64,000 nt of DNA, from assembly GCF_038396675.1 (NCBI RefSeq), contig NC_088921.1:47855001-47919000 (forward strand), written 5' to 3'. Source of the stretch: Hydra vulgaris. Lineage: Eukaryota; Cnidaria; Hydrozoa; Anthoathecata; Hydridae. The position numbers and the translations under genes are program-made. Shown here piece after piece: positions 22,770-60,920 of the stretch. Numbering within the stretch: position 1 is the stretch's first letter; each line of letters begins with the position of its first letter. The notes under the pieces were generated by a model. It saw only the letters and a program-made list of their open reading frames with translations, ran no database searches and had not been told where the DNA came from.

Positions 22770-22953
22770 TACAGTATCGGACAAAATGAGTGCAACCAAA
22801 TAATGCTAATTTAATGCTTAATTTATTCATCACAAAGTTCATTATTTGTACACGAAAATTAATAAATTAATCAAAAGTATTAAAAAAATTTGATTACCTT
22901 CCGGACAAAACCAGTGCAACTCAACAAAATGTTGACCAAGCTGTATTTCGCTA

Positions 22954-23979
22954 TCAATATTTCGTGGCGAATCCTTTGTTTTCAATCACAGCCTTGCATC
23001 TTCGAGGCATAGATTCGATCAGGTAATCAATGAAACTTTGTGGAATCGCTGCCCAGGCCTTTTGGATTTGTTCAAACAGTTGATCCTTATTACGAACACC
23101 TTCACGATAAATTCTGCGGTTGACGATCTCCCTCAGGTTCTCGATAGGGTTGAGATCCGGAGATTGAGGCGGCCAATCTATCACCAATAGGTGGTTGTCT
23201 TGAAACCACTGCTTGACTACTTTTGCAGTGTGTTTCGGATCGTTGTCTTGCTGAAAAACCCATTTTATTGGCATATTCCATTCAGCATGAGGTAACATAA
23301 CATCTTTCAGGATATTTTTATACATGAAACGGTCCATTATTCAATCTTTTCGATGTGTTATACCTAGACCGTTAACAGATAAACACCCCCAGACCATTAC
23401 ATTGCCTCCACCATGCTTCACGGTCTTATGGCAGTAACGTAATTCGAGGCGTTTTCCGGCCGATCGACGTACACGGCAAATGCCATCGCTCCCAATGATA
23501 TTGAACTTCGATTCATCACTGAACAGGGCAGTTCGCCATTTCTGCACATTCCAGTCAATATGAGATGTAGCAAACAGGAGTCTTTTCTTCTGGTTTTTTA
23601 GTGAAGTCAGCGGTTTCTTTGCAGGGCGTCGAGAAAACAATCTGGCTTCAACAGCATGTCGTCTGATTGTTCGGTCCGATACAGGCAGCTCTAATTGCTT
23701 TTGTATCTCGATTGATGATATCCAGGGATCCTTCTTGACGGATCTGACGATCATAGAATCCTCTCTAGAAGTGGTGGAACGCGGTCTTCCACCTATATTA
23801 TCTGCTGCCAACTTCCCCGTAGAATGATATTTGGAACATAGTCTTGATACGGTCCAATTTTTCACGCGATATTTATCACAAATACTTTTTTGTGACATTC
23901 CAGTTACGTAATCGCCAATAATTTTCTTTCTTAGTTCCAATCCAAGACTGTCGGGAGCCATTTTTGCACTTGAAGTCAT
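22954..23979 (-). pseudogene. Tc1 DD34E transposase, one nonsense codon (copy A)
   Basis: The frame runs from ATG at 23979 to the stop at 22954-22956, about 341 codons, which is full Tc1 length. The only obvious defect is an in-frame TGA at 23341-23343, where copy C has a glycine codon (GGA). N-terminal helix-turn-helix regions cover about residues 12-110, with the GRPR motif at 64-67 between them. The catalytic triad is D155 (FSDES), D245 (QQDNDPKHT) and E280 (SPDLNPIEN), with 34 residues between the last two. It would cut and paste the element at TA sites. A second in-frame ATG at codon 7 is the first ATG retained in copy C. Reversion of one base would restore the frame, so the copy is young. 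Confidence 0.9.
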
Positions 23980-24246
23980 AAAAATAACAAAAATAAATAA
24001 TCAAGCTTCTCAAGGCTTACGGTGTTACATTAACCTTGTGATGATACAATAATGGTCTGTGGAACACAACGTCTTGTTTGGATGTGGACTGTATTGATGT
24101 AATGAAACACTTGTTGTTTTTCACTTCTTGTATTGATGTTCTTCGATAAAACACTTTGATAAAACTCACTTCGATAAACTGTCTTGATAATACTGACTGA
24201 TTGACTTCCATATACTGACTGAATTACATGTCGATTTACATGTCTC

Positions 24247-24253
24247 TTATATA
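24247..24253 (-). promoter_or_regulatory. TATA box of Tc1 transposase gene, copy A
   Basis: On the minus strand this reads TATATAA within CTATATAAGAG, about 270 bp before the transposase ATG and just downstream of the TTC/GAA array. All three copies retain it. The start site would fall near 24220, giving a 5' leader of about 240 nt rich in A. Confidence 0.65.
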
Positions 24254-24310
24254 GTAAAATGAACCTGTGTGAACCTGTTCTGGACGATTCTAGATGCATC
24301 TTTTCGATGC

Positions 24311-24457
24311 TTCTGGAAGCTTCTGGATGTGTCTGGATGCTTCTGAATGTTTCTGGATAATTCTGGATGCTACTGGATGCTTCCAGATGCTTCTTCTGGA
24401 AACTTCTGGAAGCTTCTGCATGCTTCTGGAAACTTCTGGAAACTTCTGAATACTTCC
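24311..24457. promoter_or_regulatory. Phased heat-shock-element-like array, copy A
   Basis: Fifteen 10-bp units of consensus TTCTGGAWRC run from 24311 to 24453, with a 3-bp slip at 24391-24393. This places TTC and its inverse GAA alternately every 5 bp, which is the nTTCnnGAAn binding pattern of heat-shock factor. Runs of five consecutive perfect pentamers occur at 24394-24416 and 24424-24446, and three at 24311-24323. The array lies immediately upstream of the minus-strand TATA box. It could also be read as a simple minisatellite, but its position and exact phase favour a promoter role. Confidence 0.6.
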
Positions 24458-24738
24458 TTTAATTATTAAAAAACTTCCGTGACGTTGACCAGACTTAAGA
24501 AAATGGAACAAACCAAAAAAGTTGCACTTATTTTGTCCGCTGCAAAATGGCACTTGTCAACGAAATTCTGCCTGTGTGCTGTCACCTATCAGCTGATTGC
24601 TCATGTCATGGCATGCTATGACTCCAGACTCCTGAACTGTTTGCTGTGGTAGTATAGTTCGTTTCGTTTTTAAGACATGTAAAATTAGGAACACTTTTTA
24701 GCATTGTTCGATGTTGGTTGCAAATGTTTTGTCCAATA

Positions 24739-25389
<651 letters not shown>

Positions 25390-26276: not shown

Positions 26277-33387
<7,111 letters not shown>

Positions 33388-45536: not shown

Positions 45537-58129
<12,593 letters not shown>

Positions 58130-58990: not shown

Positions 58991-59069
<79 letters not shown>

Positions 59070-59071
59070 TA
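58988..59071. repeat. (TA)n microsatellite abutting Tc1 copy C
   Basis: About 76 bp of TA running into the TA target of copy C. Confidence 0.95.
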
Positions 59072-59324
59072 CAGTATCGGACAAAACGAGTGCAACCAAA
59101 TAATGTTAATTTAGTTTCTTTAAATAAAAGTGCTGCATTTTTTCAATTTAGAGAAATAACTATGTAACTGTTCAGAGACAAAGTTCTTCAAGTTTTATTC
59201 ATCGCAAATTTCCATATTTGTACACGAAAATTAATAAATTAATCAAAAGTATTAAAAAAGTTGATTTCCTTCTGGACAAAACAAGTGCAACTCGACAAAA
59301 TGTTGACCAAGCTGTATTTTGCTA

Positions 59325-60332
59325 TCAATATTTCGTGGCGAATCCATTGCTTTCGATCACAGCCTTGCATCTTCGAGGCATAGATTCGATCAGGTGATCA
59401 ATGAAACTTTGTGGATTCGCTGCCCAGGCCTTTTAGATTTGTTGAAACAGTTGATCCTTATTACAAACACCTTCATGATTAATTCTGCGGTTGACGATCT
59501 CCCACAGGTTCTCGATAGGGTTAAGATCCGGAGATTGAGGCGGCCAATCCATCACCAATTGGTGGTTGTCTTGAAACCACTGCTTGACTACTTTTGCAGT
59601 GTGTTTCGGATCGTTGTCTTGCTGAAAAACCCATTTTATTGGCATATTCCATTCAGCATGAGGTAACATAACATCTTTCAGGATATTTTTATACATGAAA
59701 CGGTCCATTATTCCATCGTTTCGATGTATTGGACCTAGACCGTTAGCAGAAAAACACCCCCAGACCATTACATTACCTCCACCATGCTTCACGGTCTTAT
59801 GGCAGTAACGTAATTCGAGGCGTTTTCCGGCCGGTCGACGTACACGGCAAATGCCATCGCTCCCAATGATGTTGAACATCGATTCATCACTGAACAGGGC
59901 AGTTCGCCATTTCTGCACATTCCAGTCAATATGAGATGTAGCAAACAGGAGTCTTTTCTTCTGGTTTTTTAGTGAAGTCAGCGGTTTCTTTGCAGGGCGT
60001 CGAGAAAACAATCCGGCTTTAACAGCATGTCGTCTGATTGTTCGGTCCGATACAGGCAGCTCTAATTGCTTTTGTATCTCGACTGATGCTATCCAGGGAT
60101 CCTTCTTGACGGATCTGACGATCATAGAATCCTCTCTAGAAGTGGTGGAACGCGGTCTTCCATCTTTGTTATCTGCTGCCAACTTCCCCGTAGAATGATA
60201 TTTGGAACATAGTCTTGATACGGTCCAATTTTTCACGCGATATTTATCCCAAATACTTTTTTGTGACATTCCACTTACGTAATCGCCAATAATTTTCTTT
60301 CTTAGTTCCAATCCAAGACTGTCGGGAGCCAT
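59325..60332 (-). pseudogene. Tc1 DD34E transposase, one nonsense codon (copy C)
   Basis: Open from ATG at 60332 for 299 codons, then an in-frame TAA at 59433-59435 where copy A has a Gln codon. The same frame continues to the normal stop at 59325-59327. All three catalytic residues (FSDES, QQDNDPKHT, SPDLNPIEN) lie upstream of the stop. A 299-residue product would retain the catalytic core and lack only the last 35 or so residues. The first ATG of copy A is AAG here, supporting the second ATG as the real start. Confidence 0.9.
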
Positions 60333-60617
60333 TTTTGCACTTGAAGTCTTAAAAATAATAAAAATAAATAATCACGCTTCTTAAGGCTTACGGTGTTACA
60401 TCTACCTTGTGATGATACAATAATGCTCTGTGGAACACAACGTCTTGGTTGGATGTGGACTGTATTGATGTAATGAAACACTTGTTGTATTTCACTTCTT
60501 ATATTGATGTTCTTTGATAAAACATTTTGATAAAACTCACTTCGATAAACTGTCTTGATAATACTGACTGATTGACTTCCATATACTGACTGAATTACAT
60601 GTCGATTTACATGTCTC

Positions 60618-60624
60618 TTATATA
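60618..60624 (-). promoter_or_regulatory. TATA box of Tc1 transposase gene, copy C
   Basis: TATATAA on the minus strand, conserved in position with copies A and B. Confidence 0.6.
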
Positions 60625-60648
60625 GTAAAATGAACCTGTGTGAACCTG

Positions 60649-60787
60649 TTCTGGAAGCTTCTGGGTGCGTCTGGATGCTTCTGAATGTTTCTGGATACTT
60701 ATGGATGCTACTGGATGCTTCCAGATGCTTCTTCTGGAAACTTCTGCATGCTTCTAGAAACTTCTGGAAACTTCTGGATACTTCCTT
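60649..60787. promoter_or_regulatory. Phased heat-shock-element-like array, copy C
   Basis: The same 10-bp TTCTGGAWRC units, somewhat shorter than in A and B. Perfect pentamer runs include TTCTGGAAGCTTC at its proximal end and a run of five near 60751-60773 (TTC.. .GAA..TTC..GAA..TTC). Confidence 0.55.
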
Positions 60788-60896
60788 TAATTATTAAAAA
60801 ACTTCCGTGACGTTGACACGGATTAAACTTAAGAAAATGGAACAAACCAAAAAAGTTGCACTTGTTTTGTCCGCTGCAAAATGGCACTTGTCAACG

Positions 60897-60920
60897 AATT
60901 TAATATTAATAATATTAATA

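Follow-up and report, generated by a model that had tools for sequence, protein, structure and literature searches.

Does a Tc1-type transposon of Hydra vulgaris carry a heat-shock promoter of its own? The question is raised by copy A of such an element, in which a long array of GAA and TTC triplets, laid out in the manner of heat-shock elements (HSEs), lies just before the TATA box of the transposase gene in the window, the 64-kb stretch of DNA analysed here, positions 47855001-47919000 of contig C2. On balance, the array is probably a clustered HSE that makes up the upstream, activating portion of a promoter belonging to the transposase itself and driven by heat-shock factor (HSF).

The Tc1 element and its promoter DNA

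The features of copy A, and of copies B and C in the same window, are as follows.

22772..24741, minus strand: Tc1-type transposon, copy A, with CAGTATYGGAC termini, TA flanks, and DDE_3 and HTH_Tnp_Tc3_2 domains
22770-22771 and 24742-24743: TA flanks of copy A
22954..23979, minus strand: transposase frame of copy A, broken into ORFs 23979-23341 and 23337-22954
24521..24542, minus strand: inner direct repeat in the 5' inverted repeat of copy A, found by eye (IR/DR layout)
22901..22922, plus strand: inner direct repeat at the 3' end of copy A, found by eye
24278..24456, minus strand: HSE-type array of copy A, 179 bp, about 17 ten-bp units, with GAA in nearly all and TTC or ATC as its partner
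24394..24416: perfect five-pentamer HSE
24424..24446: perfect five-pentamer HSE
24311..24323: perfect three-pentamer HSE
24246..24253, minus strand: TATATAAG box of copy A, with TATATAA at 24253-24247
24217..24222, minus strand: TCAGTC, Initiator-like, its A 33 bp past the initial T of the TATA box; start predicted at 24220
55212..57100, minus strand: copy B, with its array at 56657-56815 and TATATAA at 56632-56626
56773-56805: perfect seven-pentamer run of copy B
59072..60898, minus strand: copy C, 5' terminus absent and right edge set by eye, with its array at 60649-60784 and TATATAA at 60624-60618

Copy A is a Tc1/mariner element of the Tc1 branch, as established by its domains, DD34E signature, TA target site and terminal inverted repeats. 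Both PF13358 (DDE_3) and PF01498 (HTH_Tnp_Tc3_2) score above the Pfam cut-off in its transposase, and the 34 residues from the second D to the E were measured in another copy, one with an open 341-codon frame. The terminal sequences pair as inverted repeats, and each end has two GGACAAAA-type repeats, one outer and one inner, in the IR/DR layout, the inner repeats being recognised by eye; in copy B, a pattern scan found one repeat of this type at each end. Among 23 copies that were fetched whole or lie in the window, both ends are present in 17, 14 of them with TA on both sides, and the full 341-codon frame is found in one and lacking in the other 22. The 5' end is kept in 27 of the 30 copies tried, and over up to 1.7 kb these 27 are 87.7-99.0% identical to their majority sequence, with a median pairwise identity of 95.3%; 40 scored places in the genome resemble the promoter DNA of copy A.

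Several copies are surrounded by tracts of TA dinucleotides (24742-24975 and 59000-59071 in the window, and the flanks of several fetched copies), and the placement of Tc1 copies inside such tracts is in line with TA target choice. Two copies on contig C15 (L046 and L047, ~37.22-37.23 Mb), opposite in strand and separated by ~10 kb, share 100% identity over 1.7 kb but diverge just past the 3' end, a pair that possibly reflects inverted duplication or gene conversion. Beside copy A, the window also holds an 809-codon open frame (26479-28908).

The array has a period of 10 bp, with 14.8 copies reported by TRF at 24306-24456. Perfect alternating TTC/GAA runs of 3, 5 and 5 pentamers occur in copy A, of 3, 3 and 7 in copy B, and of 3, 3 and 5 in copy C; an HSE being defined by at least 3 contiguous alternating nGAAn/nTTCn pentamers, the array is one by this criterion. 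Nine of the 10 runs of at least 3 pentamers in the window lie in the three Tc1 arrays. First-order Markov versions of the array A region hold a mean of 0.01 such runs, and the observed runs were reached in 0 of 2,000 Markov-1 simulations for each of arrays A, B and C. Under a relaxed scoring that allows at most 1 mismatch per subunit while keeping the G or C (adapted from a Drosophila screen as set out in PMC2871787, but less strict when runs are long), arrays A and B and the majority sequence each reach a longest run of 9 subunits and array C one of 7; in shuffled versions (300 each) the longest run averaged 2.4-2.6 subunits and never exceeded 6.

The TATA box and its neighbourhood recur among copies. 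The nearest GAA starts 27 bp upstream of TATATAAG; an HSE is expected no more than about 400 bp before the transcription start, which here is a predicted one. In 24 of the 30 copies sampled, the 21-base surroundings of the box match with at most 2 mismatches. TCAGTC, which is Initiator-like by consensus and spacing, stands at the same spacing in four of five copies looked at, copy B being one base different there. From a start at 24220, the untranslated leader is predicted to span 241 nt to the first ATG at 23979. Many Hydra transcripts receive their leaders by trans-splicing (PMC12220107).

The initial annotation, which had recognised a Tc1 element with runs of five perfect pentamers (24394-24416 and 24424-24446 in copy A) and an array directly before a TATATAA box, upstream of the transposase, is upheld on these points. 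It had also described TTC and GAA as alternating every 5 bp; here the 10-bp period and the perfect runs stand, but the alternation is imperfect. In a majority sequence of 46 copies (48 tried, 2 skipped for missing anchors; a biased sample, because some were picked for a five-pentamer HSE, L009-L038, or for likeness to copy A), read in the sense of the transposase, GAA is present in 15 of 17 units and its partner is TTC in 6/17, ATC in 9/17, and ATG or ATT in 2/17. Units of 13 bp in the array also break the register, moving it by 3 bp.

The array across the family and the genome

A search of 911,502,276 bases in 15 contigs with a transposase-start pattern (at most 2 mismatches) found 2,247 places in the genome, and the reversed control found 0. 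Thirty copies, the first matches listed for this pattern, on contig C1, were picked regardless of the array; a run of at least 3 pentamers is present in 28 of them and one of at least 5 in 20, and in the two copies lacking a run unrelated DNA substitutes for the array region. The 30 copies showed no run of at least 3 in the 600 bp of downstream coding DNA, nor any run in their reversed upstream control, and their Markov controls gave a mean of 0.48 copies in 30 with a run. The array is thus family-wide, in nearly all sampled copies. That it is an oddity of one copy is ruled out by the runs in 28 of 30 unselected copies, that it characterises the sequence of the element as a whole by the absence of runs from the coding 600 bp (30 copies), and that it arose by chance by the Markov simulations, the 30-copy controls and the shuffles. 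No sister Tc1 family lacking the array was found in searches that favour the closest copies first.

On the evidence of the first 100 five-pentamer matches listed, a large share of the HSEs in the genome comes from the element. The five-pentamer pattern TTCNNGAANNTTCNNGAANNTTC has 2,342 matches in the genome, overlaps counted, and the same pattern backwards has 22. Judged by eye, 93 of the first 100 listed (all on C1) have the spacers of the Tc1 element, and 30 of the 30 checked among these lie inside it, in 18 separate copies; the other seven represent three places in a second, unrelated repeat, and by their spacers all 100 appear to come from these two families (37/100 read in DNA). When the first spacer is restricted to AT, the pattern yields 254 matches vs 17 in its control. 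For the three-pentamer pattern the figures are 27,538 and 12,789, so that about half of its matches exceed the control; 43 of its first 100 listed have Tc1 spacers or lie within such a cluster. Scanning other copies for the array, and the scattering of HSEs by the element, had both been put forward at the outset; the scan is positive in 28 of 30 sampled copies, and the scattering is borne out by the first-listed five-pentamer places.

At one further site (L119:349-517), which is promoter-like, HSE runs of 3, 3, 7 and 5 pentamers lie near TATAAATAAA; the site showed no sign of membership in the Tc1 family or the second repeat.

The main role of the arrays might be that of a host-level sink, or of enhancers for neighbouring genes, with the element's own transcription silenced, as would suit the 2,247 transposase-start places, the 22 of 23 copies lacking a full frame, and the precedent described for the HSE-bearing Helitrons of Caenorhabditis (PMC6927752). 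The array, however, is placed before the transposase TATA box and is not scattered through the element, and we regard this account as highly improbable.

A second repeat family and the possible use of the array

The reading of the array as part of an HSF-driven promoter gains from the second dispersed repeat, since an unrelated family with the same layout, an array before a TATA box, counts in its favour. In this repeat, which is unrelated to Tc1, an HSE array lies directly before a TATAAAAG box (L094, L095 and L096, 1-1801 each; L097-L118). Its TATA segment was found with at most 2 mismatches at 92 places (control, 0), and its promoter at 40 scored places of 86-100% identity. In the majority sequence of 23 copies GAA and TTC are in register at 13 of 15 steps, separated by spacers such as CG, AA, AC, CA and CT, and the final TTC ends 18 bp before TATAAAAG. 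Over seven 10-bp units, minority letters make up 2/42 in the triplets vs 11/28 in the spacers (p=0.0004), and conserved triplets among varied spacers would be the trace left by HSF use. Among genomic copies of the repeat, triplets and spacers are substituted at 6.7% and 8.8%, respectively, outside CpG, a difference that is not significant (p=0.23). The downstream gene looks spliced, by eye, and has a weak BED-like zinc finger below the cut-off. Two weak matches in pieces of the repeat were taken for chance, and four further pieces gave no match.

Within the Tc1 array itself the corresponding contrast is weaker, and here the main rival explanation arises, namely that the array is a passive 10-bp minisatellite which reads as an HSE by luck, hitch-hikes with the element and is unused by HSF. 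Array length varies among copies by whole 10-bp units, gained and lost, which suits a minisatellite, as do the ATC partners in 9 of 17 units. Minority letters amount to 10/102 in triplets vs 12/68 in spacers, so that excess constraint on the GAA/TTC triplets is not significant (17 units, p=0.10) and the array may be a tandem repeat of recent origin with 10-bp units. A random 10-bp unit of this base composition has the HSE layout at 0.3%, which is rare but not negligible over many repeats. The weak contrast may, on a post hoc explanation, arise because the tail-to-tail spacer is itself constrained. In HSEs this spacer is often pyrimidine-purine, the head-to-head spacer is free, and guanine is the most conserved base of the pentamer, according to the account in PMC8379338. 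Among the 17 Tc1 units, 16 have a pyrimidine-purine tail-to-tail spacer, the head-to-head spacer holds 8 of the 12 spacer changes, and the ATC variants retain the C opposite the pentamer's guanine. A minisatellite would make coincidences of that pyrimidine-purine spacer, of the position of the array between the inner direct repeat and the TATA box, and of the independent HSE array before the TATA box of the second repeat; we consider it unlikely.

On the host side, the genome contains five places that match the HSF DNA-binding domain, all above the cut-off and one with internal stops, and four of the five have an RQLN-type motif in an open frame, RQLN being what we take to be the HSF recognition-helix motif. 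Several HSF places would also suit a promoter element that works without heat, through an HSF active in stem or germ cells or another factor that recognises GGAA- or TTCC-type cores, and that gives cell-type-specific Tc1 expression at normal temperature; Ets- or NFAT-like factors read cores of this type. To our knowledge, HSF is the factor that requires GAA and TTC alternating every 5 bp, which argues against other factors. Tc1-type elements are named among the putatively active, expressed elements of Hydra in a class-level statement (PMC12220107), and that class is wider than the present family, which likewise weakens the case for a heat-free promoter; such a promoter is distinctly unlikely.

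Hydra vulgaris is reported to synthesise HSP70 after 90 min at 33 C, and the response is absent in H. oligactis according to a title cited in the same paper (PMC2908143). As a host positive control, two hsp70 promoters, L120 with 380 bp and L121 with 269 bp before the start codon, were read, and no two-pentamer HSE was found in either; they may belong to constitutive genes. Together with ATC in 9 of 17 partners and the scarcity of full frames, these two HSE-free promoters count against the HSF-driven reading. In both L120 and L121, a TTGTACCCCCGTATTGCAAA box precedes a TATAAATTGA box. PF00012 has 44 matches in all, of which the nine best-scoring look like separate genes, and hsp70 matches on C10, C11 and C12 form four pairs with equal or near-equal scores, 10-23 kb apart, three of them on opposite strands.

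With a long HSE array just before its own gene, the element could be woken by heat. When heat or another proteotoxic stress occurs, trimers of Hydra HSF would settle on the perfect blocks of five to seven pentamers and would bind the GAA/ATC units closer to the TATA box more weakly. Bound HSF would then promote transcription from the TATATAAG box, with a start predicted near 24220, and the burst of transcription would yield more transposase and more mobility. Insertions of whole copies would bring the array along, seeding new strong HSEs, with possible effects on neighbouring genes. If HSF does drive the element, heat stress would raise transposition in an animal whose self-renewal depends on stem cells.

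A broader proposal, which we offer tentatively as a possibility, is that mobile DNA largely makes the strong HSEs of Hydra: at least two unrelated families would have independently evolved or captured arrays before their own TATA boxes, and heat would both mobilise them and lay new heat-responsive promoters. With a second family of this layout at hand, one can test whether transposons have convergently captured the heat shock response, and Hydra is well suited to such tests because of the reported HSP70 response in Hydra vulgaris and its reported absence in H. oligactis (PMC2908143).

Comparison with known systems

The Hydra element resembles those of the Sleeping Beauty type, Tc1/mariner transposons with DD34E, IR/DR ends and a TA target, in its transposase domains, DD34E, TA target and two direct repeats per end (the inner ones by eye). 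We know of no HSE array in Sleeping Beauty type elements.

HSE-bearing transposons are already known from Arabidopsis and Caenorhabditis. Among the matches listed in searches of titles and abstract openings of the open-access literature, no Tc1 element with an HSE array in its own transposase promoter was found; likewise, the matches listed included no cnidarian case of such a Tc1 element plus a second family of like layout.

Canonical HSEs of Drosophila heat-shock genes, as presented in PMC2871787, comprise anywhere from 2 to 11 subunits; what they share with the Hydra array is a set of 3 or more alternating pentamers a short way upstream of a gene. They belong to heat-shock genes, whereas the Hydra array is long, is built of several blocks with many one-mismatch subunits, and resides in a transposon.

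A parallel in promoter design is ONSEN of Arabidopsis, which uses HSFA2 (Cavrak 2014, PMC3907296). ONSEN's own promoter has a heat-responsive element that heat stress factors of the host recognise (PMC3907296), and the array in the promoter of the Hydra transposon would be its counterpart. ONSEN is an LTR-copia retrotransposon whose activation by heat has been demonstrated (PMC3907296), whereas the Hydra element is of class II and is known from its sequence; membership in the ONSEN family is ruled out, as the element encodes a Tc1 transposase.

In genomic weight, the nearest counterparts are the Helitrons of Caenorhabditis, which hold 61.4% of that genome's HSEs by motif scan, in dense clusters (Garrigues 2019, PMC6927752). 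There too a group of DNA transposons supplies most of a genome's HSEs in dense clusters. Helitron identity is ruled out for the Hydra element by its Tc1 ends and DDE transposase. The Caenorhabditis elements are Helitrons, of the rolling-circle kind, on which occupancy by HSF-1 and Pol II has been measured, whereas the Hydra element is a cut-and-paste Tc1 described at the level of its DNA; and, unlike those Helitrons as portrayed in the cited account (PMC6927752), it places its array directly upstream of the TATA box of its own transposase.
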